NCBI GenBank assembly: GCA_022703505.1
Contig: JAKLDN010000010.1
Span: 1 to 64,000, forward strand
Source: Spirochaetota bacterium
GTDB taxonomy: Bacteria > Spirochaetota > Spirochaetia > Treponematales > UBA12059
Length of the DNA: 64,000 nucleotides
Direction of reading: 5' to 3'
Shown: piece by piece, positions 40,366 to 57,368 of the stretch
Layout of the letters: each line of letters begins with the position of its first letter
Numbering within the stretch: the stretch's first letter is position 1
Notes under the pieces: generated by a model
Databases searched by the model: none
Seen by the model: only the letters and a program-made list of their open reading frames with translations
Told to the model about the DNA's origin: nothing
Program-made: the position numbers and the translations under genes

Positions 40366-41751
40366 CTAGCGCCCGGGCCCGAGTTTCTCGTTCAGGACCT
40401 TTAGCCGCGAGCGCAGGCGGCGCTCTCCGATGCCCAGGGCCCGGGCGGCCTCGCTCCGGTTTCCACCCGCGGCTTCCAGGGCCTTGGCGATCAGGTCCAG
40501 CTCGAAACGGCCGACGACTTCGTCATAGGTTCCGGAAGCGGCTCCTTCCGGTTCCGTCGCGCCCGACGACGATTCCAGCTGGATGTCCTGGGTGCTCAGG
40601 ATCTCCCGACGCGTCATGAGCACGGCCCGTTCGACGGCGTTCTCGAGTTCCCGCACGTTGCCGGGGAAGGGGTGCCGCATGAGCGCCGACAGGGCTTCCC
40701 GGCTGATGCCCCGGACGGGCCGCCCGTATTCCTTGGAGAATTTCTCGATAAACCAACGGGTCAGGGCGGCGATGTCCTCCCGGCGTTCCCGAAGGGGGGG
40801 TATCGCGATCGGGATCACATTCAGTCTCCAGTAGAGGTCGGCCCGGAACGTTCCCAGCTCCATCATACCCTTGAGATTCCGGTTGGTGGCGGCGATGATG
40901 CGGACATCCAGGGTCCGGGTCGCATTCTCCCCGACCCGCTGGATTTGCCCGAACTGGAGGGCCCGGAGGAGCTTCACCTGGATGCCCAGGGGGATGTCCC
41001 CTACCTCGTCGATGAAGAGGCTTCCGCCGTCGCCCTCGGCGAACCGACCTTCCCGGGACTGGTCCGCCCCCGTGAAGGCGCCCTTCACGTGTCCGAAGAG
41101 CTCGCTTTCCATCAGGGTCTCCGGCAGGGCGGCGATATTGACCGTCACGAAGGGCTTGTCCCGCCGATCGCTGGAATCGTGGATCAGTCGGGCGACCAGC
41201 TCCTTTCCGGTTCCGCTCTCCCCGGTGATCAGCACTGTCGCCGAGCTTTCCCGGGCCCGGTACACCGCGCTCAGGACCTCCCGCATCCGGGTGTCGGCGT
41301 GGATGAAGGGGACCTCGCTCGACTCCGGGCTCAGGAAGGGATCCAACTCGTCGTTCTCGTGTTCGATGGTCGATTTCTCGTACTCCCGGATGAACAGGTG
41401 CTCCAGGCTTTCCGAGGTCACCGGCTTCACGAGGTAATCCGAGCCGCCGGCCTTGAGGATGCTGACCGCGTCTTGGGTATCCTCGAAGGCGGTCATGATG
41501 ACCACCGAGACGGTCGGGTCGGAGCTCTTGACCTTCCGGAGCACGTCCAGGCCGTTCCCGTCGGGCAGGCGGAAGTCGGACAGGACGAGGTCGATCGAGC
41601 GGGAGTCGAGGACTTCGAGGGCACCTCTCACCGTCTCCGCGGTGTGAAGTTCGATGCGGGGATAATCGATCCGGCCGGTGATGGCCTTGATCCGCTCCAG
41701 CAGGGTGAAGTCGTCGTCCACCGCAAGGACGCGGAACCGGGTGTCTACCAT
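40366..41751 (-). CDS. NtrC-type sigma-54 response regulator
   Basis: A 461-residue activator of RpoN-dependent transcription. The receiver domain has acidic pocket VDDD (11-14), phospho-acceptor Asp59 (LVLSDFRLPD) and Lys109 (DYLVKP). The AAA+ domain has Walker A GESGTGKE (177-184), the sigma-54 contact loop GAFTGA (224-229), Walker B SLFIDEVGDIP and the arginine region FRADLYWRLNV. The C-terminal Fis-type helix-turn-helix is NRSEAARALGIGERRLRSRL. No kinase gene is adjacent. It is divergent from the operon at 42089-57324, which has a sigma-54 promoter, and twin dyads lie 43 bases from its own start, so self-control is possible. Confidence 0.95.
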   Translation of the reverse strand: MVDTRFRVLAVDDDFTLLERIKAITGRIDYPRIELHTAETVRGALEVLDSRSIDLVLSDFRLPDGNGLDVLRKVKSSDPTVSVVIMTAFEDTQDAVSILKAGGSDYLVKPVTSESLEHLFIREYEKSTIEHENDELDPFLSPESSEVPFIHADTRMREVLSAVYRARESSATVLITGESGTGKELVARLIHDSSDRRDKPFVTVNIAALPETLMESELFGHVKGAFTGADQSREGRFAEGDGGSLFIDEVGDIPLGIQVKLLRALQFGQIQRVGENATRTLDVRIIAATNRNLKGMMELGTFRADLYWRLNVIPIAIPPLRERREDIAALTRWFIEKFSKEYGRPVRGISREALSALMRHPFPGNVRELENAVERAVLMTRREILSTQDIQLESSSGATEPEGAASGTYDEVVGRFELDLIAKALEAAGGNRSEAARALGIGERRLRSRLKVLNEKLGPGR

Positions 41752-41793
41752 GCGTATAAGTATCGGCTCGTCCGCCCCGCAAAGCCAGGGTGC

Positions 41794-41832
41794 TTCGACG
41801 TTCAGGTCGAAAACTTCGACGGAATCGTCGAA
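41794..41832. promoter_or_regulatory. Twin dyad: probable enhancer sites of the NtrC-type activator
   Basis: Two dyads of identical plan, TTCGAC-N6-GTCGAA, lie at 41794-41811 and 41815-41832. Their centres are 21 bp apart, two helical turns, so dimers would bind on one face of the DNA. They are about 117 bp upstream of the GG of the sigma-54 promoter, a normal enhancer distance. Confidence 0.8.
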
Positions 41833-41947
41833 GCCCGGCCCGTCCCTAGAAGACCTCCGGGGCGGCCGGGTATCGGGCTATCCGGGTCTTTTCATGTATT
41901 TCATTTTATAGAAAAACTTTAAAGCCCGGTGGACGGATTTTGCTCTT

Positions 41948-41965
41948 TTGGCATGAAACCTGCTT
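41948..41965 (+). promoter_or_regulatory. Sigma-54 promoter of the giant surface-protein operon
   Basis: TTGGCATGAAACCTGCTT has the GG (41950-41951) and GC (41962-41963) separated by exactly ten bases, as required for -24/-12 promoters (consensus TGGCAC-N5-TTGCW). Transcription would begin near 41975, giving a leader of about 115 bases before the ATG at 42089. I see no gene in the leader. Confidence 0.75.
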
Positions 41966-42088
41966 TAAGTCATCTGAACAGGATGCGATACCCGGCCGAA
42001 ACAGCCTCCCGCCGCATGCCCGGGGCGGCGGTATTTGTAACGGCTATATAGGAAAGCGTCCGATAATGATTCCGGGTAGAGGTGCACA

Positions 42089-45000
42089 ATGAGGTTGAAT
42101 ACAGGCCGGTTTCCCATCGGACTTCATATCTTCACGATTCTTCTATTCCTGTTCGGGGGCTGTCGGAATCCCTTCTCCCCGGGCCTGGGGGAGAAGATCG
42201 ATATCACCCCTCCGTCGATCAGTCTCACAAGCCATCTGCCGGGAGGCTTCCTTCAGGGCGAGGTATCCTTCTCCGGCCTTGCCTCGGACGACCAGAAGAT
42301 CGCGGCGGTTCGCATATCATTCAACGGGGGGACCTCCTGGAGCGACGTGACCTCCTACGACACCGCGTCCAAGGTATGGCGTCATGACCTGGATACCACG
42401 TCGTACCCCAACGGATCCTTCAGGATCCGGCTTCGCGTGCTCGACGAGGCGGGGAAGCGCACGGACACGGAGGATCTGGTCTTCACCATCGACAACCTCC
42501 CGCCCCAGATAGAGATCCAGGTGCCCGCCATCAATCCCGCGACGTACGATCCTCTCCTGCCGCCGGAAATCGCCATGAACGGGGTCGTCATCGGTATCGT
42601 GACGGACCTCCAGGGTGTCGCCGTCGGGTACCCGCAGATCAAGTTCTGGAAAACCACCGATTCCGAGCCGGACTGGGATGACGTCATCGGCCTATCCGAG
42701 GTCAAGAAAACGACCGATTTCCGGTACCGACTCTCCGACGAGCATCCCGGCGAGGTCGGGACCTTCAACATGAGGCTCCGGGCCGTGGACGTGAGCGGCG
42801 GTGAGACCGTCGTCCCGCCCCTCGCCCAGGATCCCTATACAGTGAAAGTCATCAGCGGGGACGTACCTCCCGTGATCAACCTGGCCTTCACCTCCGGGGA
42901 CATCAACGTCGTCGCCGGGGGTACCTACGCCGGGGATGATTACGCCTTCCGCGTAACCGCGAATCACCCCAACGGAATCACCTCTGTGACCCTTGAGAGA
43001 ACCCGGGAGGGTGGCCCGACCGTTCCCGTATCCTGGGCGGCCGACGATCTGGGATCCCCGACCCGCACCCTGGACAGCCCGGTCCTTGCCGTGGCGCCTG
43101 ACGGCTCCGACGACGGGACCTACGAGTTCAGGATCGAGGCGGTCAGCTCCACCGGAAGCGTCGCAAATTACTACAAGACCGTCATCGTGGACGCCACACC
43201 TCCCAGCGTGGAGATCACGAACCTTTCGCCCACGGTGGTGGACGATACCGATCCCGGCAACCCGGTGGAATACATTAACGGAGTGATCCAGATCAACGCC
43301 CTGGCGACGGACGCCAACGCCGTGCTGGGCAGCAAGTGGTGGATGCTCCCCTCCGTCGATCCCGCCCCGGCGGACTACGACAGTCCCGGGGGAACCGCGT
43401 TCGCCACCTCGACCCCGTCCCTAACCCTGGATTCCACGTCCCTGCTGGATGGCACCGAGTACAAATTCTATATAATCTCCCGGGATCGGGCCCGGAACGA
43501 CACCCGCATCAGCCGGGTCTTGACGGTCAGCCAAGGGACGGACATTCCGACGGCGGTTGTAACGGACATCGACACCTCCGTCACCACGGCGGCCGGAGCC
43601 GGCGCGGGGGGAGTGAACCTCCTGGACACCAACGCCCGAATCCGAGGCATCCTGTCGGACGACGACCGGATCGACGTTTCCTCCGTGACTCTCAGCCTGA
43701 ACGGTGCCCCCGTGGGGACCCTCGACTCCCTGGGGCTCCCGGGGCGCAGCGTCTCCTTCTCCCACAACGTGGATTCCCTGGGGCAGGGGGTCCACTCCTT
43801 CGAGCTCGAGTTCGGCGACGACGCCTCCGTCAAGAGCGGGAAGCCCTCGGCCTCGGCCTCGATCGGTCCCGTGTACTTCGTGATCGACACCTCTCCGCCC
43901 TCGATCTCCGTCGTTTCGCCCGGGGTTGGAACCTTCCAGAGGGCGTCCTTCACCCTCTCGGGAACCGCGGCGGACGCGAACGGCCTGGCCACGGTGACGC
44001 CGGGAGGATCGGACGAGTACATCGAGGTAGCCTTCCCGGAGGCTCCGGGGACTTGGGTCCAGGTGCCGGTCGATTCCGGAACCCACGCGTGGTCCGTGAC
44101 CGTAGGGGGCGGGCCGTCGACTCTCTTCGGCGGTTCCTACGAAGGTCCCCGATCAGTCTCCATCCGCGCCCGGGACCGGTTCGGGAAGCTCTCCACGGCT
44201 TCATTCTCCTTCACGGTAGACACCGTAGCCCCGACCGCGGCCGTCTCCCTGCCCGCGGCGGACGCGTGGCTCTCGGGAGCCTCGGATTCCGTCCAGGGGA
44301 CCGCCTCGGACGCGACGAGTTCCGTATCCCAGGTCCGGTACTGGGTCGGCGACGAGGGAGCCTCACCGCCGGCGGATACTGCGGACTGGACCCTAGCCTC
44401 GGGAACGACCAGCTGGAACGGCTCTCTCAACCTTTCGGCCCTGGGGGAGGGGAGGACATCGGTCCATGCCCGGTCCCGGGACGCGGCCGGCAACTGGAGC
44501 GTATCCTCGGTCCGGACCTTCGGGATCGACCAGGCCGCCCCTGCCATCACGGAAACGGCCGTAGGCGCGGCTAGCGCGGGACGGAACGCGGCCTTCTCCC
44601 TGGGCGGCAACCTTTCGGACTCCAACGCCCTCGCGAACCTGACCGTTACCCAAACCAAGGGCGCGGATCCCGCCGTGGAGCTGTACAGCGGATCCGTGAC
44701 GGGAACCTCCCAAGCCTGGTCGATCTCCGACCTTCCCCGGAACCCCGCGATCCCCGCGAACCTGCTCCTGGAGGACGGGGTCTACACCTATGCCCTCACC
44801 GTTACAGATGCCGCGGGAAAGACCGCGGTCCTCGGGCGGACGATCACCGTGGACCTCACCGGACCCGACGTGGCCATCGTCGCCCCGACGCCTGGAGCCG
44901 CCGTCCAGGGCACCGCCCTATCCGCGAACGGCACCGCCGCGGATTTCGGCGGGGTGAGCCCCATAGCAGAAACCCGGTACGCGGTGACCGTGCCTCCGGC

Positions 45001-48000
45001 CCTTCCGCCCGCGGATTACGCGGCATGGACCGCCGCTTCGGGCGCGGCGTCCTGGACAGCGGCTCTGAGCTTCCTGCCCTCCGAGGAAGGTCCCCGGGTG
45101 CTCCACGTCGTGGCCCGGGATACCGCGGGCAACTGGAGCCCCGCCCCGGCCACGGCGGCCTTCAACCTGGATCAGGCGCCGCCGGAGGTTCAAGCCTTCG
45201 GTTTCGGTGTGGGAACCGTCAACACCGTCGGTGGCACCGGGTACGCCAAGGGGGATTTCTCCTTCTCCTTCACGGCCTACGACAGCAATGCCCTGGCCAA
45301 CGTCCGGGTAACACGGAACGGGACCCAGATCTTCGACGGAAACTACTCGACTACAAGCCAGCCCGTCACCGTTAACCAAACGGTGGGCGGCCCCGGACTC
45401 GCCGACGGCATCTACGAGTACATCCTCACGGTGACGGACATCGTCGGCAAGACCGCGACCCTGACCCGCAGCGTCGTCGTGGATACCGCGGGGCCCCTGG
45501 CGGAGATCGCCAGTCTAACCCCGGTGCTGTCGATGAGCGGCACCGATTACGTGAACGGGACCATCCGCTTCACCGCCTCCGCCTCGGACGGGAACGGCCT
45601 GACCGGGGTCAAGTGGTGGCTTCTGCCGGTCGCGGCTTCGGCCCCGGCGGATTACGACGCCGCCGGTGGCACCGCCTTCGGGGCGGCTCCGTACACGGCC
45701 ACGGTGGATACGACGAGCCTGTCCGATTCGACGGCCCATGTCCTGTACGTCATCGCCCGGGACCGGGCCCTCAACGACACCCAGACGACCCGGACCGTCA
45801 CGGTGGAGCAATCCACGGATATCCCCGCGGTGAGCTTGACCCATCCCGGGGCGGGCGCCTTCGTGGGCGCCGGCTACACGGTGCGGGGGACCGTGACGGA
45901 CGACGACGGCGTGGCAGCGGCCACGGTCCAGGTGAGCTACCACGACGGAAGCTCCTGGAGCGCCTGGGGTTCCGCGACGGTTACGGGGACCGGGCGGGAG
46001 CTGTCCTTCACCTATGTCCTGCCGGTCGGAATCGGGGCGGACGGCCCCAAGCAGGTACGGGCCCGGGCCGATGACGACGCGGCCGCCAAGCTGGGGGGCG
46101 ATCCCTCGGCTTCGGGAACCTCTTCGGACGTATCCTTCACCCTCGACACCCTTCCTCCCTCGGTTTCCATCCTGGTACCCGCGGCCGCCTCGGCCCGCAG
46201 GACCACCTTCACGGTCTCCGGAGAGGTGGTGGAACGCAACCTGGATACCCTGCGCCTGAGCCTCGACGGCGGGCCGCAGGTCGACGCGCCGGTCGTAGGA
46301 GTCGGTGAGACCAAGACCTGGTCCTATGACCTGCCCGGCGCGGATTTCGACGCCCTCGCCGAAGGCCCCCACACGATCTCCGTGGAAGCGGTGGACCGGG
46401 TGGGCCGGAGCCACACGGTGCAGCGGGTGTTCTACAAGGACACCTCGGGACCGGCGATATCCTTCACCTCCATCGTGGAGGGCGGGAACACCATCGTAAC
46501 CGAGACCTCCCCGGTACTGAGGGGCGCCTTCTCGGACGAGTACTCCGACATCGCCGGAACTTTCGAGTACCGGCTCGATTCCTCCCTGGATACGGACCCC
46601 TGGACCACCCTGGCGGTCACGGGTACGGGCAAAACCGTCGCATGGGCCGTGTCCGTGGACGCCTTGTCGGACGGAAGCCATACCGTCGACGTCCGGATCC
46701 TGGACGCGGTCGGAAACCTCCGTACCAAGGAGGATGTGGCCTTCCGCCTGGACCGGGCCCTTCCCGTCATCAACATCTCGGCGCCGGTTTCCGGGGGTAT
46801 CTACGGAGCCGTCGCGGCGGGTCCCGTGTTCACCCTTTCCGGGACCGCACAGGACGCCAACCTCGTCTCGGTCCGGGCCAAGCTGGGCTCCGGGCCGGAG
46901 ACGGACATCACCGGGGTCGTCGCGGGCGGCACCAGCACCTGGAACTATCCCGTGGCCAAGGCGGATTTCGACGCCCTGCCCGACGGAGGCGGCACCGTGA
47001 CCGTGACGGCCGTGGACGCCGCGGGGCGGACGTCCCAGACGGCGTGGACCTTCACGAAGGACACGACGGAGCCGGACGCGGCCTTCAACACCCTGGACCT
47101 CGGCGGCACGACGGTCCTGCAGGACAGCCAACCCCGGGTCCTGGGAAGCTTCTCCGACGCGTACGGCGTCGCCTCCATGGAAAGCCGGGTGGAGCGCTAC
47201 GATTATGCCGGCACCCTGTGGATCCTGGTGCAGGATTGGACCTCCCTGGGAGCTCCGGGCGGCCAAACCGTCGCCGCCTGGTCCAAGGACCTGGGAACCG
47301 CGGGCCTCAACCTGGCCGACGGGCGGTACCGGATCGCGGTCCGGGCCTCCGACCGGGCGGTCCCGGACGCGAACGTCCGGACGACCGCGGCCGTTGAATT
47401 CCGGATCGACCGGAACAACCCGTCCCTGACCCTGAATCCCGGCGGACTCTTCCAGAGGACCGATTTCCCCATAAGCGGCACGGCTTCGGACCTGAACACC
47501 ATCGCCTCGGTGCGGGCCAAGGTCGGGGACGGGGACTTCTCCTCCGGGACGGTGACGTCAGCGTCCACCTCCAACGGATTCGCGACCTGGACGGTCACGG
47601 TACCGACAGGGGGTCTCACTCCGGGATCCTATACGGTGTACGTGGAGGCGGAGGACGGGGCCGGCAGGAAAAGCCAGCTGACCCGGGAGTTCAGTTTCGA
47701 CGGAACGCCCCCGGTCGTCTCCATCAGCGAGCCCCCGAACGGCAGCCGTGTAAACGGCCTGGTGACCGTGCGGGGCACGACTTCGGATGACAATGCCGTG
47801 GCCCTGGTCCAATACAGGATCGGGAACGGTGCGACCACCTGGCAGACCGCGGGATTGGGAGGGGGGCTCTATAGCTGGAGCTACACCTTCTCGAACATCA
47901 ACACCTACGCGAACACCTCGGACGTCACGGAGGTCGATCCCCTGACCGGCCTTCCCGCCTCGGGCACGAACGTCTGGGCCCTGCCTTTCCAGGTCCGGGT

Positions 48001-51000
48001 CACGGACGTGGCGGGCAATACCACGGAAGAACTATCCTACCGGCTCCTGGTGGACCCCGACATGGACGCCCCCGTGGTGACCATCATAAGTCCCATGAAC
48101 GACCAGATCGTCGGCGGCGAGGTTCGGGTTTCCGGCTACGCTTCCGACGACGACTGGGTGCGGAGCGTCGAGCTTCGGGTCGACCCCACCGGAACGGGGA
48201 CTTCCTTCGGGGCCTGGGAGCCCGCGACCATGGTGAACCAGGGCACCCAGGTGAACTGGTTCAAGAACATCAACACCTCCGGGGAGCTCAACCCCGCGGC
48301 CGGAACGATCCGGGACGTCCGGATCCAGGTCCGTGCCTACGATTCCAAGGACTACGGGGTGACCCCGGGGATCACGGGGGACACGGTCGAGCTGAACGTC
48401 AAGTTCGACAGCGGAGTGCCGGTTATCCAGAACGTCCGGGTATTCCGAAACGGTTCCGAGGTCGAGTACGCGGCGGGTGTCCGTGCGGCGGGGATCTTCT
48501 CGGTCCGGGCGAGCGTCCGGGACGAGGGAGGCATCGCCAGCATCAAGTGGCGCCGGGAAGGCCAGACGGTCTTCACGAACATCCTGGCCGATCCCGCGTA
48601 CACGACCCCTCCGACGGAACGGACCGCCGGATTTTTCGAAGTCGGGCGGAAGTACCTGATCACCTCGGCGGGCACGACGGACTTCACGGCGATCGGAGCA
48701 AGCAGCAACACCCCTGGGATCTCCTTCCTGGCTACGGGTATGGGCGCCGGGACCGGCACCGCCTACGAAGCGATCGGACCCTTGGCGGATCCCACCAACC
48801 AGTACTTCCAGTACGAGGTGGAGATCGAGATCGACTCCACGACGGTCAACGCGGGGCAGTACGCGGGCACCACGGGGTTCTTCTCCCTTGACCTGCAGGC
48901 CACGGACAACGCGACCCCCACGCCGTACCTGACCCAGGCCAGCCTGAACATCCAGATCGACAACTACTTCCCCTTCGGGGAGTACAGCTCGTCCGCGAGA
49001 GCCTCCACGGCGAATTACTACATCCAGGGCCGGGCCTGGGATTCCGGGACCGGATCGGGAAGCATCCAGGGCATCGACCGTGTGGTGGTCTACTTCTACA
49101 AGAACGGGGTATACATCGCCCCCGACGGAGGGGCTTTCAACGGTACCACCCGTACCCTCAAGGACATGACCGCGGGCGGAACCCTCCAGACGGTTGTATT
49201 CCCTGCGGACGCCGCTTCAGGGATCGTCATCGACGGCAACGAGGTGACCTCGGATCTTGACGGCAGCGGGTACATTGAAGGTTTCACCGACGACGGGATC
49301 TACAAGAATTGGTACGCCATTTACGACACCACTCAATTGGGCGACGGTCCTATGGACGTGCACTACGTAGTCGTAGACCGGGCCGGGAACTCGACCCGGT
49401 ATGTCCAAGCAGTCTACATCCGGAACAACGCGCCCCGGATCACCGGCGTCGTCATCGGCACCGATGTGGACGGAAACGGGACGGTCGGGGACATCGCCTC
49501 CGGGGAGAGTCGCCGGATCGCGGCGGCCTACGGGACGACGAACTTCACGGTCCGCAACGAACGTCTGGCCTTCGAGGCCGAGACGGCGGGCGGGAATCTT
49601 CCGAACCGCTACTCCATCGGCTACGTGACCGGCACTGCGTCCGTCGGGGCCGCGGCGCTGGTTCCCGGGAGCGTCTATACGATCGAGACCGCCGGAACCA
49701 CAAACTGGACCCTCCTGGGCGCCCCGGACAACCTGGCGGGCACGACCTTCGTGGCCGGCGGCTCGGGTGCCGGGACCGGCACCGCGACGGGCTACACGAT
49801 CGTCCAGAAGAACACCGCACCGTACACCTCGGCTACCCTGACCCTGGACGATTTCACGGGCATGCCCGACACGGCAGCGGCCAACGAGGCGCGCTTCGTG
49901 GTGAAGGTCTACGACACGACCGTTGCCGCGGGAACGGAGGCGGACCAGCTGGCCGACGCCGTGGTGATCGGCCTCAGTATCGACAATGTGGACGACCTCG
50001 CGCCCGGCATAACGGCTGCACCCTTCGGCCGCGAATACACGTCCCCGGCCAGCTTCTCCGACGCGGACAAGGCGCTGAAGGACGTGGACGCCTACACGGA
50101 AAACCTCGTCACCTCAGGCAGCGGGGTCTCCCTCGTGAAACACGGGTACGCTCAGTACGCCCTGCATTCCGGGGACGGGGACGCGGATGTCAGCGGCAAG
50201 GTCGTATTCCTCGGAAAGGCGGCGGACAACCAGAGGATCGCCCGGATCACGGTCCAGATCCCCGGATATAACGGGGGGGCCGCCTTCGACATCGCCCTCT
50301 GGGACGGATCGGCCCTGTCCGCGGCCGCGGCGGGTCGGACCTTGGCCGACGTGGCCGCGGGGACCTCGGACTGGGGCTTCGAGGCGGAGGCCGGCAGCCA
50401 AGCCGTGACCGAGACATACGGCCACGTGCTCAACTGGAAGTTCGCCTGGAACTCCGCGGCCCTCTCCACCGTGACCGCCCCGGACGTCATCGTGACCTTT
50501 ACGGCCTACGACGCGGGACCCTCGGGGGGCAACAGCTCCTCCGGGGATTTGACCGTGGACGTGGTGCCGTACATCACGAAGATCTCCAATCCGACGGGGC
50601 AGGGCGGTCTGTCGGATACGGTGATCCGCAGCTCCCGGGGCCGGTACAGCATCGAGTACCACGCTACGAACCATTTCCGCGCCAGCGGTTTCAACTTGTC
50701 CGGGGCGGTCGCCCATGTCAGCTCCGCGGCCATCGACATCCAGCCCGGGACGACGAATCTCACCGTTGCCGCGACGACGGCGACGACCGTCGATATACGG
50801 AAGAACTTCTCTCTCTCGGGCTACTTGACGGTCTTCGTGAACGGTATACCCAGCATCAACAATCTGAACGATACCGGCCAGGCCTACCACTCCGAAGCCG
50901 CCGTGGGAGATCCGCGTTCGACCTTGTGGACCGATGATCGGTATCTGACGGTTTGGAATCTGACCCAGGTTCTCCCTGCGGTCACCAACCAGACCTTCTA

Positions 51001-52198
51001 CTACCCGTCCATGGTCATGAACGGAAACCAGCCGCTTTTCAGCTACGCCAACGACAACGACGGGTATACCTATAGGACCACGGGGGTCGCGGCCTCATCC
51101 CAGCGGGGAGGCATCTGGTTCGAGCGCCACACGGCCTTGGCCCGGTCGGCGGGGGGAATCTACTGGATCCTCTCGGTCCAGGACGCCGTCGGCACCGGGG
51201 GCATCGGGTACCTCTACCTCAACCGGGACCGGAACGTGAACGCCCTCCTGGGCGACACCCAGAACAACAACCACTTCGAAATCATAGGTCTGGATTACAC
51301 GAGCCGGCAGATGAACCGGATACGGTATCCCAAGCTCATTGTCGAGGGACCGGACAACGCGACGAACATCTACATCTCGTACTACGACGCCCATCCCTCC
51401 CGCCGTGAACTTTCCTTCGTCTCCTTCCAGGCGTCCACGGCGACGGCCTCGAATCTCACTCAGCCCGCGAACGACGCGGCCCGGGCCGCCCAGGTCCAAG
51501 TCATCCCGAACACGGCGAACGCCAGCAGCGAGTACTTCGACATGGTCCGGATCGGGGCGGCGGAGGTCGCGGTGGCCTACTTCGACGAGACCGCCGGAGT
51601 CCTGAAGCTCCAGTATTCGGGAGACGCCTGGAACGCGAACAACCAGAGCGGAGCCGGGACCTGGACGGAGTTGACCGTGGACGACAGCGTCCTGACGGGA
51701 TCCCATGTGTCCATGACCGTCGGCCAGAGGAGCGGTACGACCTACCTCTACCTGGCGTACCACGACGCCGCGGAGACGGCCCTGAAATTCGCGCAGATCG
51801 ATTGGACCACGAAGGCCGTCACGAAGTCGGTGATCGACAACCGGTTCTCCGTGGGTACTCGGACCAACGTCTTCGTGATCGATGAGCTGCCCTACGTATC
51901 CTTCTATTCCGATTCGTACAGCGGCACCCGGAATTCCATCCGGCTGGCCTACCCCGTGGCCGCCAACGGCCGTACAGCGGCGGAGAACATCCTGCAGCCC
52001 GGGGCCGACGTCAACGAGGAGTACACGGGCGACTGGGAAGTAGCCGCGGTACCGGCCGTCACGGTCCCCAAAGGAGGGATCGAGCAGTTCAATCGAACCC
52101 AGTTGAACCAGTACACCAACGGAGCGTCCGTCCTGCCCGTCGTCGGCTGGCTTGCGGATCGGATCGAGTACGCCGAGCTCCAGCCGACTGCGCCGTGA
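42089..52198 (+). CDS. Giant Ig-repeat surface lipoprotein
   Basis: A 3369-residue protein, the largest here. The signal peptide ends in lipobox FGGC (Cys25). From about residue 35 to 2150 it is a chain of roughly 90-residue bacterial Ig-like domains, many with a repeated pattern such as VRGTVTDDDGV, DNLPPQIEI and DAAGNWSVSSVRTF. Two related inserts near 2185-2230 and 2524-2570 (GTTDFTAIGA, GTTNWTLLGA, then GAGTGTA) look like motifs of phage tail proteins. Residues from about 2900 contain propeller-like repeats (YISYYDAHP, YLAYHDAAET, YVSFYSDSYS). It is probably anchored in the outer membrane and adhesive. It is first in the sigma-54 operon. Confidence 0.85.
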   Translation: MRLNTGRFPIGLHIFTILLFLFGGCRNPFSPGLGEKIDITPPSISLTSHLPGGFLQGEVSFSGLASDDQKIAAVRISFNGGTSWSDVTSYDTASKVWRHDLDTTSYPNGSFRIRLRVLDEAGKRTDTEDLVFTIDNLPPQIEIQVPAINPATYDPLLPPEIAMNGVVIGIVTDLQGVAVGYPQIKFWKTTDSEPDWDDVIGLSEVKKTTDFRYRLSDEHPGEVGTFNMRLRAVDVSGGETVVPPLAQDPYTVKVISGDVPPVINLAFTSGDINVVAGGTYAGDDYAFRVTANHPNGITSVTLERTREGGPTVPVSWAADDLGSPTRTLDSPVLAVAPDGSDDGTYEFRIEAVSSTGSVANYYKTVIVDATPPSVEITNLSPTVVDDTDPGNPVEYINGVIQINALATDANAVLGSKWWMLPSVDPAPADYDSPGGTAFATSTPSLTLDSTSLLDGTEYKFYIISRDRARNDTRISRVLTVSQGTDIPTAVVTDIDTSVTTAAGAGAGGVNLLDTNARIRGILSDDDRIDVSSVTLSLNGAPVGTLDSLGLPGRSVSFSHNVDSLGQGVHSFELEFGDDASVKSGKPSASASIGPVYFVIDTSPPSISVVSPGVGTFQRASFTLSGTAADANGLATVTPGGSDEYIEVAFPEAPGTWVQVPVDSGTHAWSVTVGGGPSTLFGGSYEGPRSVSIRARDRFGKLSTASFSFTVDTVAPTAAVSLPAADAWLSGASDSVQGTASDATSSVSQVRYWVGDEGASPPADTADWTLASGTTSWNGSLNLSALGEGRTSVHARSRDAAGNWSVSSVRTFGIDQAAPAITETAVGAASAGRNAAFSLGGNLSDSNALANLTVTQTKGADPAVELYSGSVTGTSQAWSISDLPRNPAIPANLLLEDGVYTYALTVTDAAGKTAVLGRTITVDLTGPDVAIVAPTPGAAVQGTALSANGTAADFGGVSPIAETRYAVTVPPALPPADYAAWTAASGAASWTAALSFLPSEEGPRVLHVVARDTAGNWSPAPATAAFNLDQAPPEVQAFGFGVGTVNTVGGTGYAKGDFSFSFTAYDSNALANVRVTRNGTQIFDGNYSTTSQPVTVNQTVGGPGLADGIYEYILTVTDIVGKTATLTRSVVVDTAGPLAEIASLTPVLSMSGTDYVNGTIRFTASASDGNGLTGVKWWLLPVAASAPADYDAAGGTAFGAAPYTATVDTTSLSDSTAHVLYVIARDRALNDTQTTRTVTVEQSTDIPAVSLTHPGAGAFVGAGYTVRGTVTDDDGVAAATVQVSYHDGSSWSAWGSATVTGTGRELSFTYVLPVGIGADGPKQVRARADDDAAAKLGGDPSASGTSSDVSFTLDTLPPSVSILVPAAASARRTTFTVSGEVVERNLDTLRLSLDGGPQVDAPVVGVGETKTWSYDLPGADFDALAEGPHTISVEAVDRVGRSHTVQRVFYKDTSGPAISFTSIVEGGNTIVTETSPVLRGAFSDEYSDIAGTFEYRLDSSLDTDPWTTLAVTGTGKTVAWAVSVDALSDGSHTVDVRILDAVGNLRTKEDVAFRLDRALPVINISAPVSGGIYGAVAAGPVFTLSGTAQDANLVSVRAKLGSGPETDITGVVAGGTSTWNYPVAKADFDALPDGGGTVTVTAVDAAGRTSQTAWTFTKDTTEPDAAFNTLDLGGTTVLQDSQPRVLGSFSDAYGVASMESRVERYDYAGTLWILVQDWTSLGAPGGQTVAAWSKDLGTAGLNLADGRYRIAVRASDRAVPDANVRTTAAVEFRIDRNNPSLTLNPGGLFQRTDFPISGTASDLNTIASVRAKVGDGDFSSGTVTSASTSNGFATWTVTVPTGGLTPGSYTVYVEAEDGAGRKSQLTREFSFDGTPPVVSISEPPNGSRVNGLVTVRGTTSDDNAVALVQYRIGNGATTWQTAGLGGGLYSWSYTFSNINTYANTSDVTEVDPLTGLPASGTNVWALPFQVRVTDVAGNTTEELSYRLLVDPDMDAPVVTIISPMNDQIVGGEVRVSGYASDDDWVRSVELRVDPTGTGTSFGAWEPATMVNQGTQVNWFKNINTSGELNPAAGTIRDVRIQVRAYDSKDYGVTPGITGDTVELNVKFDSGVPVIQNVRVFRNGSEVEYAAGVRAAGIFSVRASVRDEGGIASIKWRREGQTVFTNILADPAYTTPPTERTAGFFEVGRKYLITSAGTTDFTAIGASSNTPGISFLATGMGAGTGTAYEAIGPLADPTNQYFQYEVEIEIDSTTVNAGQYAGTTGFFSLDLQATDNATPTPYLTQASLNIQIDNYFPFGEYSSSARASTANYYIQGRAWDSGTGSGSIQGIDRVVVYFYKNGVYIAPDGGAFNGTTRTLKDMTAGGTLQTVVFPADAASGIVIDGNEVTSDLDGSGYIEGFTDDGIYKNWYAIYDTTQLGDGPMDVHYVVVDRAGNSTRYVQAVYIRNNAPRITGVVIGTDVDGNGTVGDIASGESRRIAAAYGTTNFTVRNERLAFEAETAGGNLPNRYSIGYVTGTASVGAAALVPGSVYTIETAGTTNWTLLGAPDNLAGTTFVAGGSGAGTGTATGYTIVQKNTAPYTSATLTLDDFTGMPDTAAANEARFVVKVYDTTVAAGTEADQLADAVVIGLSIDNVDDLAPGITAAPFGREYTSPASFSDADKALKDVDAYTENLVTSGSGVSLVKHGYAQYALHSGDGDADVSGKVVFLGKAADNQRIARITVQIPGYNGGAAFDIALWDGSALSAAAAGRTLADVAAGTSDWGFEAEAGSQAVTETYGHVLNWKFAWNSAALSTVTAPDVIVTFTAYDAGPSGGNSSSGDLTVDVVPYITKISNPTGQGGLSDTVIRSSRGRYSIEYHATNHFRASGFNLSGAVAHVSSAAIDIQPGTTNLTVAATTATTVDIRKNFSLSGYLTVFVNGIPSINNLNDTGQAYHSEAAVGDPRSTLWTDDRYLTVWNLTQVLPAVTNQTFYYPSMVMNGNQPLFSYANDNDGYTYRTTGVAASSQRGGIWFERHTALARSAGGIYWILSVQDAVGTGGIGYLYLNRDRNVNALLGDTQNNNHFEIIGLDYTSRQMNRIRYPKLIVEGPDNATNIYISYYDAHPSRRELSFVSFQASTATASNLTQPANDAARAAQVQVIPNTANASSEYFDMVRIGAAEVAVAYFDETAGVLKLQYSGDAWNANNQSGAGTWTELTVDDSVLTGSHVSMTVGQRSGTTYLYLAYHDAAETALKFAQIDWTTKAVTKSVIDNRFSVGTRTNVFVIDELPYVSFYSDSYSGTRNSIRLAYPVAANGRTAAENILQPGADVNEEYTGDWEVAAVPAVTVPKGGIEQFNRTQLNQYTNGASVLPVVGWLADRIEYAELQPTAP

Positions 52199-52211
52199 CG
52201 GGAGGACGAAG

Positions 52212-53267
52212 GTGAAACCATCCGTGCGGCGCACTGACAAGCGGGCCGGAAATCACCGGCCGGGAATCCCGGGTCCCGGGCGCTTCAAGATCATCGCCGC
52301 GGCGGCCGCCCTTGCGGCGGTATTGGCCGCGGGCTACCTCCTGCTCCGGCCCCGGCCGGTCTTCCTGGTGGAGGAGGGTTTCGTTCCCGCCTGGGAGAAG
52401 CTCCTCGAGGAGGGCCCGGGTGCGCCCGGGTGGCGGATCGTGAAGTACGATCCCCGGGATGGGCTGCCCTCGACCCGAGGTCTTCGAGGATATAGAATCT
52501 CCACGGACAGGGAAGGTCGGCCGCCGGCCGGCCGGTCCGCAGCGGCCGGGTCGGCGGAGTCCGTCCCCATCCCGGTGCCGCGCCGGGACCTGTCCCGGAA
52601 CCCGGCGTTGCCGGACGGAGCCCTGCCCCTGGCGGTGGACCCGTGGATGGTCTTCCGCCGACACGCCGACCCGCCTCCGTCGCGGGCCCTCCTGGAAAAA
52701 GGCGGATCCGGCGCGGTCGTCCTTCTTCCGGGGGGGGAGCCCGAGGCCCTCTGGGCCTGGGCCGGCCAGGAACTGCAAAATGTCCCCGGATCCTTTCCTT
52801 CGGACCCCGGGCTCTGGCTGGATCGCACGGACCGAATGGCCCGGGACAGGCGCTTCCAGCCCGGGGCCCTCACCGCGCGCTGGGAGGATGTCCTTTCCCG
52901 GCTCCTGGAACCGGGCGCCTCCTGGTTGTACGCGCCCCTGAGCCGGGTGCTGACTCTGCCTGGGGACCGGACGAGCCTCCTGGAGGCCGATCCCTTCCCG
53001 CCCCGGGAAGGCTGGAACGATTTCGGCCTGCAAACCCGCATCCTCTGGGCCGTGCCCCTGGGTAGAGGGACAGCCCGGGGGTTCATGGCTTCCGCGGCCC
53101 GCTGGCTTGGGGATCCGGCCATCCAAACCCGCCTCGGGGCGATCCTGGACTGGGCTCCCGCCCATCGGGACGCCCGGGCGGCAAGTCCCCTGGCGCGGAC
53201 CTCCCAGGAGGCCTGGCTAAAAAGCACCTACGTGTGGGAGGCTCCCGAATATGCGCACATCGACTGA
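52212..53267 (+). CDS. Membrane-anchored protein of unknown function in the giant-protein operon
   Basis: A 351-residue protein with a basic N-terminus, one membrane helix (IIAAAAALAAVLAAGYLLL, about residues 28-46) and an extracytoplasmic remainder. I do not recognise a family. The order of segments (FVPAWEKLLEEG at the start, WMVFRRHADPPP in the middle, RWLGDPAIQTRLGAIL and AWLKSTYVW at the end) recalls periplasmic solute-binding proteins, but this is only an impression. The GTG at 52212 has GGAGG six bases upstream. It starts 13 bases after the giant gene and overlaps the next gene by 17 bases, so it belongs to the same operon. Confidence 0.7.
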   Translation: MKPSVRRTDKRAGNHRPGIPGPGRFKIIAAAAALAAVLAAGYLLLRPRPVFLVEEGFVPAWEKLLEEGPGAPGWRIVKYDPRDGLPSTRGLRGYRISTDREGRPPAGRSAAAGSAESVPIPVPRRDLSRNPALPDGALPLAVDPWMVFRRHADPPPSRALLEKGGSGAVVLLPGGEPEALWAWAGQELQNVPGSFPSDPGLWLDRTDRMARDRRFQPGALTARWEDVLSRLLEPGASWLYAPLSRVLTLPGDRTSLLEADPFPPREGWNDFGLQTRILWAVPLGRGTARGFMASAARWLGDPAIQTRLGAILDWAPAHRDARAASPLARTSQEAWLKSTYVWEAPEYAHID

Positions 53268-56200
53268 CTTCCGCCCGGCGCTTCCGGCTCGCTTTGCGAC
53301 GCGCTGGATGCTCGCGGCGTTGATCCTCGCTTCCTCCGTTCCCGCATGGGCGAACGGCACCCCCGAAGAGACCTGGCAGGAGGCGACGGGCACGGAGGTA
53401 TGGCTCCGGGAGTTCGACCTGTCCGGCGCCAAGCCCGGCACCCACAACGTCGTCATCCGGGCCCGGGACTCGGCGGGAAACGAGGCCCTCGTGGGACCGT
53501 ACAACATCCGGATCGACCCCTCCGTGGGCTTGCCGACGGTCCGCATCATCTACCCCGAGAAGGGCACCGTCCTGCGCAGGGACGTTCACATCGTGGGCGT
53601 GGCGGGAGGACGCATCGGAATCCAGGCCGTGGAGATCAAGCTCGACGGGGGCGAATACTCCCCCGCGAGTGGCTCCGAGTACTGGAGCGCCTCCGTGGAC
53701 GCGGCGTCCCTGCCGGACGGGCGTCATACCTTGACGGCTCGGGCCGTGGATCCCCGAGGTACCTCGGGACCGGAGACCTCGGTGTCCTTCATCCTGGACC
53801 GGGCGCCTCCCTCAGTCCGGATCCGGTCCCACGAGTCCGGAGCCCTGATCCGCGGGGCCGTCCAATTCGAAGGGACCGCGGATGACGCGAACGGCATCGC
53901 CCGGCTCTCCTTGAGCGTCGACGGCGGGAAGACGTACCAGGACCTCGGTTTCCGGGGCGCCCGGGGGGAGACGGAGGTAGGGTTCTCCTTTCCCGTCCAG
54001 AGCGGAAAGCTTCCGGACGGAGCCGCGATCTACTACCTCCGGGCGGAGGACGGAACCGGAGCCGTATCGGTCAACCCCGTCCTGTTCTTCGTGGACAACA
54101 AATCCCCGGAGTTGGAGATCCTGTGGCCGGAAAAAGGCGCGACCGTCGCGGGCACCTTCCGGATCACCGGCACGATGAAGGACGCGGTGGGGGTTCAAAG
54201 CCTCTCCTGCGAAGTCGGAAAGTCCGTGCTGGAAATCGAGATGCGTCCCGGCGACCCCTACTGGACGGCGGACATCCCGGTGCCCCCGGGCACCGGACGT
54301 TCCGTGGACCTGCGGATCGTCGCGATCGACCGGAGCGGCAACCGGACCTCGGTCTCCCGCAGTTTCGTGAACGATCTAGGGTCCTCGATACCCAGCGTGA
54401 AGATATCCCATCCCGGCGAGGCGGGACTCGCGACGTTCCCGGCGGACGGGGCGATCTTCGGGTACGTTCTGGGGGGAGCCGGTGTGGACGCCGTAAAGGT
54501 CGAGGGAGGAAAGACCTACCCCGCCCGGCCGGGCTTCCGCATCCCCTCCTCGGACATCGGGCCGGGCCGCAGCGAACTCCGCCTCCAGGCATCGGGACCC
54601 GAGGCAGCCCCGGGCGAGGTGTTGAAGGTCCGGGTCGCCCGTCCCGCCCTGCCTTCGGGAACCCTGCCGCCCTCGGCGCCGCCGCCGTCGAATATTACGG
54701 TGACCTCCCCGGCGCCGTATTCCTACCAGCGGGGGGACTTCAGCATCGCCGGTACCGCCGAGGCACCGGCCGGTTCCCGCCTGGAATATAGGACGGCTCC
54801 TACGGAGTCATGGCAGGAAATAAGCCTGGGCGGGGACGGTAGGTTCTCCTCCCGGGTCGCCCCGGCTGCGCTGCCCGAGGGACCGATGCATCTGGAACTT
54901 CGGACGGTGACCGACGGAACCGCGGCCGAGCCGGTCTACCATCCGGTCAACCGGCACACCACCGCGCCGGAGATCCGGATCCACTCCCCCCGGTCCGGGG
55001 AGAAGGTGAACGGCAGCGTGACCGTCTCCGGGGACGTCGTCACGGCCGCCCCGATCGCGGATCTTTCGTATACCCTGGACGGAAAGACCTTCCGGGCCCT
55101 CCAGGGCATCCCCGCCTCCTACGGAGCCGCCTTCTCCGTGATCGTGGACTTCACGGTCCTGCAGAAGTCCGGGGGAAGCGTCGGCGTCCGGGCGGTGGAC
55201 GCGGCGGGAAACTCCGCGGATATCGGGATACCCGTGACCGTGGACGCGTCGGGGGACCTGCCCTCGGTCCAGCTGAACCTTCCCGTGGACGGAGCCGTGG
55301 CGACCGGGGATTTCGACATATCCGGCATGGCCTTCGACGACGACGGGGTGGCGGCCGTCCATTGGCGGATCGGGGAAGGGGCCTTCTCCCGCCTGGACGT
55401 GAAGCAGAGTTTCCGGATCGGGGTTCCCCTCTCGTCCGTCCGGGACGGAGAGCGGAGAATCGAGGTCTACGCGGAGGACGTCTACGGCCGGGTCGGGCCG
55501 CCCGCGTCGGCGGTCGTCCGGATCAGCACCGGCGCGCCGACCGTCCAGGTAGTGTCCCCGAGCATCGAGGCGTACAACCGGGGCACCGTGATCCTGCGGG
55601 GGACCGCCCGGGATCCGAACGGCATTTTCGGGGTTCGGGTCTCCATGGACAACGGCGCCACCTTCCAGAACGCCGAGGGGACCGAGTCCTGGAGCCTGTC
55701 CCTCAACACCGGAGCGTACAAGGACGGGGTGTATTCCGTCCTCGTGGTGGCGGCGGATTCCTTCGGTGTGGAGTCGAGGATCTCCTCCCTCCTCAACATC
55801 GACAACACGCCGCCCCTGATTTCCCTCGGGGAGCCCGCGGACGGCCGGGTTACGGAACCCAAGCTTCGAGTTTCGGGTCAGACCAGCGACAACTCGGGTG
55901 TCGAGTCCTTGGCCTTTGAGATTTCCCCCGTGTCGGGGTCTGGAGCCCAGCGCGGCCTACGGATCGAGGCCGAGCCGCGGTTGGTGATCCTGGAAACCCT
56001 GGACGTCTCCTCCCTCCCGGGGGGGAAATACAATCTCCGGATGATCGCCTCCGACGCGGCGGGCAACACGTCCGTCCTGGTACGGGGCATCGAACTCGTA
56101 AAGGAAGCGGGGGCCCACCGGGTCGTCCTTCTGGATCCCCTTCCGGGGGTGGCGCATACCGGCCCGTTGACGGTTTCCGGCCGCGTGACCGGTCCCAGCC

Positions 56201-57324
56201 TCCCGGCCTCTGTCGGCATATTCACGGGCCAGACGCGGGCCGCGGATGCGGAGGTCGACCGGTTCGGTTATTTCCGGCACACTCTGGAGGGCATCCCCGA
56301 GGAGGGCCGCCTGGTCCTCTGGGCGGGCTTCGACACTTCCGCGGGGGAGAAGGTCCGGAGCGCGGACCATGCCGTCATCCTGGAACCCTACGGCCCCGTC
56401 CTGACGATCTTGAGCCACGGCGCCGGGGACGCGGTGACCGGCCGTCCCTGGCTGAGCGGCACGGCGGGAATCCGGCTTTCTCCCGGGGAGGCCGAAGCGG
56501 CGGGTAAAAAGGCCGCGCGCTACTACGAGGTCTCGAACGTGGCGATTAGCCTGGATAACGGCCGGTCCTTCCAGCCGGCTCAGGGGACCTCGGAATGGAA
56601 ATTCCGGCTGGAAACCGCCGAACTCCCCCGGGGGCCCCTGCCCGTGCTGGTCCGGGCCGAGTACGCGGACGGACGTGCCGTGGTCCGCAGGATCCTGCTG
56701 ACCGTGGATACCGTTCCCCCCGTGGTGACCCTCGTGGCTCCCCAGGAAGGAAGCCTCCACGCGGAATCCCTCCTGATGTTCGGCACCGCTTCGGACGATT
56801 ACGGCCTGGAGACATTGGAGGTCAACCTTCGCGCGGGGGACAAGGCCGGGTATGCGCTCCCCCAGTTCATCCAGGGATTGTACCTGGACACTCATGCCCT
56901 GGGCGCGACCTACGGGGACGTGGGCCTGGGGGTCAGCTTCTTCGACAACAACGTCAAGCTTCAGCTGCAGGCGGGCATGGCGCCCCCGGGCCGCTTCACC
57001 GGTACGGTGTTCGGGGCCAAACTCCTGGCCAACGTGCTCTACCTGCCCTTCGATTACTTCCTGGGTCCGGACTGGTCCTTCTTCTCCATGTCCCTGGCCC
57101 TGGGTGCCAACTTCTCCTACTTCACCATGGACGCCGGCAGCGATCCCCTGGTCATGTCCTCGGTCCTGGTGCAGTGGGAGTTCGCGCGGTTCCAGTTTCC
57201 CGAGTGGAAGGCTTTCCGGACCTTCTCCCTGTACGCGGAACCGAACCTCTGGTTCGCCGCCTCGGACGTGGAGGCCGGAGCCATCTTCAAGCTGGCCTTC
57301 GGATTCCGGATCGGCATCTTTTAA
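53251..57324 (+). CDS. Ig-repeat protein with C-terminal beta-barrel-like domain
   Basis: A 1357-residue exported protein. A signal peptide (WMLAALILASSVPAWA) is followed by about ten Ig-like domains of the same style as the giant lipoprotein (DRAPPSVRIRSHESGALIRG, VSGDVVTAAPIADLSYTLDG, ISGMAFDDDGVAAVHWRIG). From about residue 1205 the sequence changes to alternating aromatic strands (FIQGLYLDTHALGATYGDVG, FSMSLALGANFSYFTMDAG) and ends in ...KLAFGFRIGIF, the terminal aromatic expected of outer-membrane barrels. It is last in the sigma-54 operon and is followed by a terminator. It may present or anchor the giant lipoprotein; that is inference. Confidence 0.82.
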   Translation: MRTSTDFRPALPARFATRWMLAALILASSVPAWANGTPEETWQEATGTEVWLREFDLSGAKPGTHNVVIRARDSAGNEALVGPYNIRIDPSVGLPTVRIIYPEKGTVLRRDVHIVGVAGGRIGIQAVEIKLDGGEYSPASGSEYWSASVDAASLPDGRHTLTARAVDPRGTSGPETSVSFILDRAPPSVRIRSHESGALIRGAVQFEGTADDANGIARLSLSVDGGKTYQDLGFRGARGETEVGFSFPVQSGKLPDGAAIYYLRAEDGTGAVSVNPVLFFVDNKSPELEILWPEKGATVAGTFRITGTMKDAVGVQSLSCEVGKSVLEIEMRPGDPYWTADIPVPPGTGRSVDLRIVAIDRSGNRTSVSRSFVNDLGSSIPSVKISHPGEAGLATFPADGAIFGYVLGGAGVDAVKVEGGKTYPARPGFRIPSSDIGPGRSELRLQASGPEAAPGEVLKVRVARPALPSGTLPPSAPPPSNITVTSPAPYSYQRGDFSIAGTAEAPAGSRLEYRTAPTESWQEISLGGDGRFSSRVAPAALPEGPMHLELRTVTDGTAAEPVYHPVNRHTTAPEIRIHSPRSGEKVNGSVTVSGDVVTAAPIADLSYTLDGKTFRALQGIPASYGAAFSVIVDFTVLQKSGGSVGVRAVDAAGNSADIGIPVTVDASGDLPSVQLNLPVDGAVATGDFDISGMAFDDDGVAAVHWRIGEGAFSRLDVKQSFRIGVPLSSVRDGERRIEVYAEDVYGRVGPPASAVVRISTGAPTVQVVSPSIEAYNRGTVILRGTARDPNGIFGVRVSMDNGATFQNAEGTESWSLSLNTGAYKDGVYSVLVVAADSFGVESRISSLLNIDNTPPLISLGEPADGRVTEPKLRVSGQTSDNSGVESLAFEISPVSGSGAQRGLRIEAEPRLVILETLDVSSLPGGKYNLRMIASDAAGNTSVLVRGIELVKEAGAHRVVLLDPLPGVAHTGPLTVSGRVTGPSLPASVGIFTGQTRAADAEVDRFGYFRHTLEGIPEEGRLVLWAGFDTSAGEKVRSADHAVILEPYGPVLTILSHGAGDAVTGRPWLSGTAGIRLSPGEAEAAGKKAARYYEVSNVAISLDNGRSFQPAQGTSEWKFRLETAELPRGPLPVLVRAEYADGRAVVRRILLTVDTVPPVVTLVAPQEGSLHAESLLMFGTASDDYGLETLEVNLRAGDKAGYALPQFIQGLYLDTHALGATYGDVGLGVSFFDNNVKLQLQAGMAPPGRFTGTVFGAKLLANVLYLPFDYFLGPDWSFFSMSLALGANFSYFTMDAGSDPLVMSSVLVQWEFARFQFPEWKAFRTFSLYAEPNLWFAASDVEAGAIFKLAFGFRIGIF

Positions 57325-57339
57325 GGTCCCTCGAACAGC

Positions 57340-57368
57340 GGCCCGCCCCTCCCCGGGGCGGGCCTTTT
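57340..57368 (+). terminator. Terminator of the giant surface-protein operon
   Basis: GGCCCGCCCC pairs perfectly with GGGGCGGGCC around a 5-base loop, followed by TTTT. It lies 15 bases after the last stop codon of the sigma-54 operon. Confidence 0.85.

Follow-up and report, generated by a model that had tools for sequence, protein, structure and literature searches.

In a 64,000-nucleotide window of contig JAKLDN010000010.1 (GenBank assembly GCA_022703505.1), from an uncultured spirochaete of the order Treponematales, we found what we take, with a probability of about three in four, to be a sigma-54 regulatory unit that drives a giant lipoprotein operon from twin dyads through a neighbouring NtrC-type activator, for a surface structure made on demand. 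The original prediction had described an activator gene, two dyads, a promoter, three close-packed genes and a terminator, and all of these were present when verified base by base, with reading frames at 40366–41751 on the minus strand and at 42089–52198 and 53251–57324 on the plus strand, as it had said. The terminator does close the operon, but it sits at 57340–57364, just outside the interval 40366–57324 that had been given for the unit.

40366–41751, minus strand: NtrC-type sigma-54 activator, 461 residues (reading frame and domains)
41794–41811, no strand: dyad 1, TTCGAC-GTTCAG-GTCGAA (exact match)
41815–41832, no strand: dyad 2, TTCGAC-GGAATC-GTCGAA (exact match), centre 21 bp from that of dyad 1
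41948–41964, plus strand: -24/-12 promoter TTGGCATGAAACCTGCT, with GG at 41950–41951 and GC at 41962–41963; recurs in relatives
42029–42085, plus strand: conserved leader holding TATATA and CCGATAAT, invariant at 53 of 57 bases among three species
42089–52198, plus strand: giant lipoprotein (P0002), 3369 residues, with lipobox LFGGC, then a GLGxx[VI]D signature and an array of Big_7/Big_13 immunoglobulin-like (Ig) domains (reading frame and domains)
52212–53267, plus strand: membrane-anchored middle protein, about 351 residues, GTG start behind GGGAGG
53251–57324, plus strand: Ig-barrel protein (P0004), 1357 residues, with an N-terminal signal-like stretch (by eye), an Ig array and a C-terminal outer-membrane-type barrel (reading frame and domains)
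57340–57364, plus strand: intrinsic terminator with a 10-bp GC stem, 5-nt loop and TTTT (computed)

In the mechanism we propose, a multimer of the activator would bind the twin dyads at 41794–41832 and loop to RNA polymerase–sigma54 at 41948–41964, where phosphorylation of the receiver by a kinase encoded elsewhere would lead to promoter opening. A single transcript would then span all three genes, from the giant lipoprotein through to the Ig-barrel protein, ending at the terminator at 57340. The Ig domains of the lipoprotein would form a stalk held by its lipid anchor and ending in a C-terminal head, and the barrel protein would be its outer-membrane partner, the two together making a long surface structure produced only on demand and most likely used for attachment.

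Besides these two dyads, the window has no exact copy; with up to two mismatches allowed, the window held 9 dyad matches where 3.35 were expected, a number reached in 0 of 100 shuffles. A scan of the whole genome (G000, 3.66 Mb), as the original prediction had proposed, returned three exact copies, two of them at the operon and one in carA, against 0 for a reversed-pattern control. The third copy (C6:1309), which is single and lies within the 3′ part of carA (Pfam), was treated as chance, as was a second twin-dyad match in the genome (C14:208277), located in a 591-codon open frame and not before a lipoprotein with the GLG signature. Persistence of the dyads in relatives that keep the gene pair had been set beforehand as a test, and both same-genus species (G001, with the same arrangement on one contig, and G002, with its parts on separate contigs) retain the two dyads, spaced 21 bp apart as in G000, together with the promoter. 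When the three species were aligned, 22 of 24 half-site positions were identical versus 2 of 12 in the N6 spacers (Fisher p 1.5e-5), and between dyad 2 and the promoter 42 of 113 positions were identical. The activator frame extends upstream past the dyads without a stop (503 codons between stops) and contains no ATG, GTG or TTG upstream of 41751. G001 likewise offers no earlier start codon, so that in neither G000 nor G001 are the dyads part of the coding sequence; in G002 an earlier start codon exists in this frame.

The dyads begin 154 and 133 bp before the promoter, which is identical at 17 of 18 bases among the three species in an otherwise diverged region, and from its position transcription is predicted to start near 41975. 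The exact pattern TTGGCAYGN5TGCW occurred at 9 sites in the genome versus 1 for the reversed control. The genome encodes one RpoN, and RpoN was found in all 39 of the genomes compared (the G022 match is partial).

The activator contains Response_reg, Sigma54_activat, AAA lid and HTH_8 domains. Its GAFTGA loop is intact, at residue 224 within the AAA+ domain, as in the NtrC family; its Fis-type helix-turn-helix has the recognition helix GERRLRSRL, and the receiver residues D12-14, D59, T87 and K109 appear intact by eye. Control by phosphorylation fits this genus, to judge from these residues; no histidine kinase was found among the three neighbouring genes scanned for domains. Intact receivers were also read by eye in G031 and G025, and one was seen in G058. 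Twenty orthologs make up one side of a branch with support of 100/99 in a tree of 46 rows (midpoint root, some long-branched paralogs; the G005 ortholog is truncated at a contig end). The GA/SFTGA loop is kept in 19 of the 20, G025 having GAFTDA, and the recognition helix reads ERR[LM]R[SY]R or ERHLRS in the orthologs versus GRKTLYQK in the main paralog group.

Twin dyads, defined as two CGAC-N6-GTCG dyads close together (3–7 base gap), were searched for in 39 relatives and then in 194 genomes of the order, with no linkage to the activator required. This search gave 28 distinct sites in 23 genomes, with 43 one-strand matches versus 5 for the reversed pattern. More distant relatives also carry the twin dyad upstream of the lipoprotein, extending what the same-genus species had indicated: 14 of the 28 sites, in 13 genomes (G000, G001, G002, G004, G006, G007, G011, G016, G018, G020, G021, G022, twice, and G175), lie upstream of a giant lipoprotein in which a lipobox cysteine is followed by GLGxx[VI]D (GLG-lipoprotein). 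Nine sites fall in open frames of 339–811 codons, none before a GLG-lipoprotein in the scan; the G102 site is outside these classes, and G058:C353 and G006:C103 were left out of the classing. The G005 twin dyad occupies the syntenic place, behind an exonuclease-like gene (by eye) as in genus g5, where the gene is RNase_T by Pfam, and precedes a different secreted protein. Pairs with the 3–7 base gap were found at the lipoprotein and not at the barrel gene.

A twin dyad at the lipoprotein was present in 12 of 21 genomes with an activator ortholog versus 0 of 18 without one (p 8e-5, a descriptive value, since the genomes are related, several are fragmentary and the counts are of non-independent events). 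The 21 include G013, whose partial activator was kept out of the tree, and in eight of the 18 (G003, G024, G026, G027, G029, G032, G033 and G035) absence of an ortholog was judged by best match only; in G024 and G027, neither of which is in the tree, that match is 38% identical, in the range of paralogs. Among the 18, the pattern matched once, in a 702-codon open frame of G023, and upstream of the lipoproteins examined in G027, G028, G029, G034 and G035 there is no twin dyad and no strong sigma-54 site.

Sigma-54 sites scoring at least 12/13 were also scanned for in 1.52 Mb of loci chosen around the operon genes, which partly overlap and in which duplicates were merged. Ten distinct sites were found, seven directly upstream of a lipoprotein (G004, G008, G010, G011, G015, G031 and the L212 genome); the site in G007 scores 11/13, and GGCACGGTTCTTGCCGATA is common to G007 and G011. 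Dyads begin 109–171 bp before the promoter in G000, G001, G002, G004, G007, G011, G025 and G031, with those of G004 matching in the inner core only.

Orthologs of the activator face other genes in two genomes. In G025 (4.7 Mb), where neither a barrel match nor a lipoprotein match was found, the ortholog adjoins three sigma-54 promoters, each preceded at 109–133 bp by a TTCGCC-N6-GGCGAA dyad (exact at two of them, 11/12 at the third), and the two exact copies are the only ones in that genome (reversed control 0). In G058 the twin dyad lies between an activator ortholog (51% identity, grouping with that of G025) and the gene of a small secreted protein, where there is also a sigma-54 site of 13/13. 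Further on in the G058 locus (L331) is a protein that has no Pfam match at 1e-5 and is 55% identical to a G025 protein (L070) with a marginal PapD_N match (24.8 vs 23 bits), suggesting a possible fimbria-like system in spirochaetes. An apparent covariation of recognition helix and dyad (GERRLR with TTCGAC; TERHLR with TTCGCC in G025 and partly in G031) was dropped, since G058 has SERHLR and TCGAC half-sites.

The idea that the activator stands beside the giant Ig gene as its own dedicated regulator fared less evenly. It holds in this genus, G010 and G015, but elsewhere in the family the ortholog is found away from the lipoprotein. The order in G015 is barrel gene, two ATP-binding cassette (ABC) transporter genes, activator, sigma-54 site and lipoprotein, and G010 broadly resembles it in sites and gene order. 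Of the 39 genomes, 4 gave a homolog of the middle gene, namely those of this genus and G034. In other genomes the gene beside the lipoprotein belongs to other families in three (two aminopeptidase-like, one M23) and has no match in one. The regulatory reading is strongly supported, but the activator–lipoprotein linkage and the three-gene unit are lineage-specific. The closed genome of G034 has four middle-gene homologs (L118, L120, L122 and L123), three of which adjoin giant lipoprotein genes, in one case followed by a barrel gene.

The genes of the operon are tightly packed, the lipoprotein stop at 52198 being followed by the GTG at 52212, and the middle and barrel genes overlapping by 17 bases (53251–53267). 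The middle gene most probably starts at this GTG, which the GGGAGG before it favours over the TTG at 52152 that was assigned mechanically. Two regions of the encoded proteins are best given separately.

50939–52195, plus strand: C-terminal region of the lipoprotein, about 420 residues, common across genera, with five h-x-Y-x-D type repeats (propeller-like by eye)
56869–57324, plus strand: C-terminal domain of P0004, residues ~1207–1357, eight strands in the model, last residue F

The last 770 residues of P0002 matched in 17 of 39 genomes (E ≤1e-8), and the C-terminal region was aligned from eight sequences; this putative head gave no match in the PDB or Pfam. RTX nonapeptides were absent from P0002, and a single match was found in P0004. 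Residues ~2527–2566 of P0002 contain a G-x-Y-x-I...GTT-x-[FW]-T...GTG-x-A motif, which we take to be common in phage tail proteins. The translocator barrel of type Va autotransporters is 12-stranded, and P0004 departs from that type with the eight strands of its modelled C-terminal domain (mean predicted local distance difference test score, pLDDT, 82.8 over 580 residues; predicted template modelling score 0.48). The cutoff of the OmpL47-type domain NF047446 (40 bits) was exceeded by P0004 (47.3) and not by P0002 (29.4), the best stretch in P0004 being residues 123–181, in the Ig part and not the C-terminal barrel; both proteins fell below the 250-bit cutoff of the OmpL47 equivalog NF047441 (P0002 47.8, P0004 27.8). 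Relatives of P0004 were found in 31 of 39 genomes, a count in which Ig regions alone can match. A GLG-lipoprotein is present in at least 25 of 78 barrel loci, many of them cut by contig ends, including locus L202 of Treponema putidum. We infer that the lipoprotein–barrel pair is an old module and that the sigma-54 enhancer is a lineage-specific control placed on it.

Several observations, in addition to the non-independence of the counts, weigh against the sigma-54 reading or narrow it. Open frames of 503–527 codons run over the dyads in all three same-genus species, so frame length alone cannot separate false matches. With one mismatch allowed, the promoter pattern shows no excess over control (17 and 14 vs 17 and 18), and only the strict pattern is therefore informative. 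The strict twin dyad was not found at the lipoprotein in nine of the 21 ortholog genomes (G005, G008, G009, G010, G013, G015, G019, G025 and G031), G009 and G031 having one dyad of 11/12, and in G008, G010, G015 and the L212 genome a sigma-54 site stands at the lipoprotein with no good dyad. The receiver is degenerate in 15 of the 20 orthologs. The conserved leader could hold a second promoter. The six species of g5 (G006, G016, G018, G020, G021 and G022) form an exception in which the distal twin dyad is kept and a proximal one added, the latter abutting TGNTATATT-like extended -10 elements at fixed distance, and no sigma-54 site was found at their twin-dyad loci. The g5 genomes do have RpoN, with the partial match in G022, and their activator keeps the GA/SFTGA loop; it may now operate at a sigma-70 promoter or repress one, or else have its sigma-54 target at another place.

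These points bear on whether the dyads belong to the activator at all, since they could be the operator of another regulator to which the NtrC-type gene is merely a neighbour in this genus. Dyads and ortholog are indeed unlinked in many genomes of the family, the g5 twin dyad occupies a place typical of sigma-70 regulators, and G008, G010 and G015 combine an ortholog and a sigma-54 site with no good dyad. We nonetheless regard another regulator as quite improbable, given that a search with the DNA motif only led in G058 to a site beside an activator ortholog, that the G025 ortholog stands beside three sigma-54 promoters with related dyads, including both exact copies of that genome, and that the single match among the 18 genomes without an ortholog is inside a G023 open frame. 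It is also rather unlikely, if slightly less so, that the operon is transcribed mainly from a sigma-70-type promoter in the leader at 42029–42085, with sigma-54 contributing little or only under some conditions. Among the longer intergenic stretches none is better conserved than the leader, which contains TATATA and GATAAT boxes; a TATATT box followed by CCGATAAT stands upstream of the sigma-54 site in g9 species, and g5 has a TGNTATATT-like box. A consensus scan of the leader, however, found no sigma-70-type promoter, and it is the sigma-54 site that is so closely conserved in a diverged region and that recurs in other genera. By eye, a short reading frame in the leader overlaps the start codon of the giant gene, and CCGATA elements also recur upstream in g5 and g9; a possible hairpin in the leaders, CCGATA-N-CGGG, was judged by eye and set aside. 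No Rfam family scored above cutoff in 41700–42200 (best Scr1601, 14.6 vs 100 bits).

The role of the proteins is a separate question, and the suggestion of adhesion or surface display comes from domain anatomy. They could instead form an envelope or uptake structure, with Ig arrays bridging the periplasm and with the solute-binding fold and transporter genes pointing to cargo binding or export, a possibility that we consider less likely than not. All 17 Foldseek matches of the middle protein (E ≤0.001) are solute-binding proteins, from a weak model (pLDDT 58.7), and no sequence match was found for it in Pfam or the PDB. Pfam confirmed a pair of ABC-transporter genes before the ortholog in G018 and G015, and such a pair was read by eye in G004, G008, G009, G011, G016, G019, G020 and G022, and in the activator loci L074–L084 of family f1 the ortholog often follows such a pair; the regulator and the transporter may be functionally linked in this family. 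Against uptake, P0004 passes the model for a Ca2+-stabilised adhesin repeat (NF033510, 58.3 against a cutoff of 50 bits, with P0002 just below at 46.7), and in G025 and G058 activators of this group have secreted proteins and a PapD_N-type protein as neighbours. The best PDB matches of the modelled Ig part of P0004 include extender repeats of RTX adhesins and SiiE, which weakly favour an adhesin, since titin and complement C3 match as well; these matches may say Ig-like and little more.

Taken across genera, the sigma-54 reading can be extended, tentatively and as less likely than not, to a conserved surface-structure switch that is formed by the spirochaete activator group and its twin-dyad enhancer and would have been rewired at three levels (target, receiver and promoter) around an unchanged enhancer. 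The target would be the giant lipoprotein in most genomes, and small secreted proteins together with the PapD_N-type protein in G025 and G058. The receiver would have decayed in most of one family, and in g5 the -24/-12 promoter would have been replaced by an extended -10 promoter next to the added twin dyad. If this is true, g5 would have a sigma-70 promoter acted on by an enhancer-binding protein whose GA/SFTGA loop is still intact, and the group would offer a natural series of one enhancer, two promoter classes, and intact and degenerate receivers.

Of the nine exact sigma-54 sites in the genome, the eight away from the operon carry no dyad pair; their best single dyad (11/12) overlaps the L218 promoter. 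Two of these sites, L215 (C3:44801) and L218 (C9:248691), are directly before sigma-70-family genes (Sigma70_r2, r3 and r4, Pfam), and L216 (C9:191241), L219 (C11:141583) and L220 (C13:139302) precede an HSP20 gene, a solute-binding protein and a HAMP/PAS/HisKA kinase gene, respectively.

To our knowledge, few sigma-54 enhancers have been mapped in the spirochaete phylum. The circuit would put giant surface lipoproteins of Treponematales-like spirochaetes under sigma-54 itself, with no RpoS step between, and its activator group, operator sequence and target gene family can be tested together in vitro. Searches of the literature (titles and abstract openings, mainly in open-access journals) found no published work on the lipoprotein family, the barrel family, the twin dyad or the activator group.

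Like NtrC, ZraR and AtoC, the activator combines a receiver, an AAA+ domain with GAFTGA and a Fis-type helix-turn-helix, with sites 109–171 bp before a -24/-12 promoter; unlike them, it has its own recognition helix and dyad and a giant lipoprotein operon as its target. The best 25 of the 113 NCBIfam models that it matched were all below cutoff (best AtoC, 397 vs 714 bits). The proteins share with the giant Ig/RTX adhesins (SiiE, RTX extenders) a long tandem Ig-like array, and they rank among the solved structures nearest to the Ig part as modelled, but P0002 differs from type I secreted RTX adhesins in having a lipobox and no RTX nonapeptide match. AtcRS and Rrp2 of Treponema denticola are likewise spirochaete two-component regulators, but AtcR binds through LytTR. 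In Borrelia burgdorferi, as outlined in the portions of the sources used here, the Rrp2-RpoN-RpoS pathway leads from an NtrC-like regulator and RpoN to surface lipoproteins (PMC3037356, PMC12655853). The sigma-54 promoters before sigma-factor genes at L215 and L218 resemble that cascade; lipoprotein control there runs through RpoS, however, whereas the sites described here are directly upstream of the lipoprotein gene. For the Leptospira sigma-54 regulon (EbpA/EbpB), the consulted part of the source reports sigma-54 motifs before two predicted lipoprotein genes, with support from electrophoretic mobility shift assays, and in that part describes neither a giant Ig lipoprotein nor a twin dyad (PMC12655853). 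The unit belongs to a known kind, enhancer control by sigma-54, with what seem to be a new enhancer, a new target family and a surprising history, and it would fit the proposal, as the part of the source seen here puts it, that sigma-54 governs the bacterial exterior (PMC3162934).

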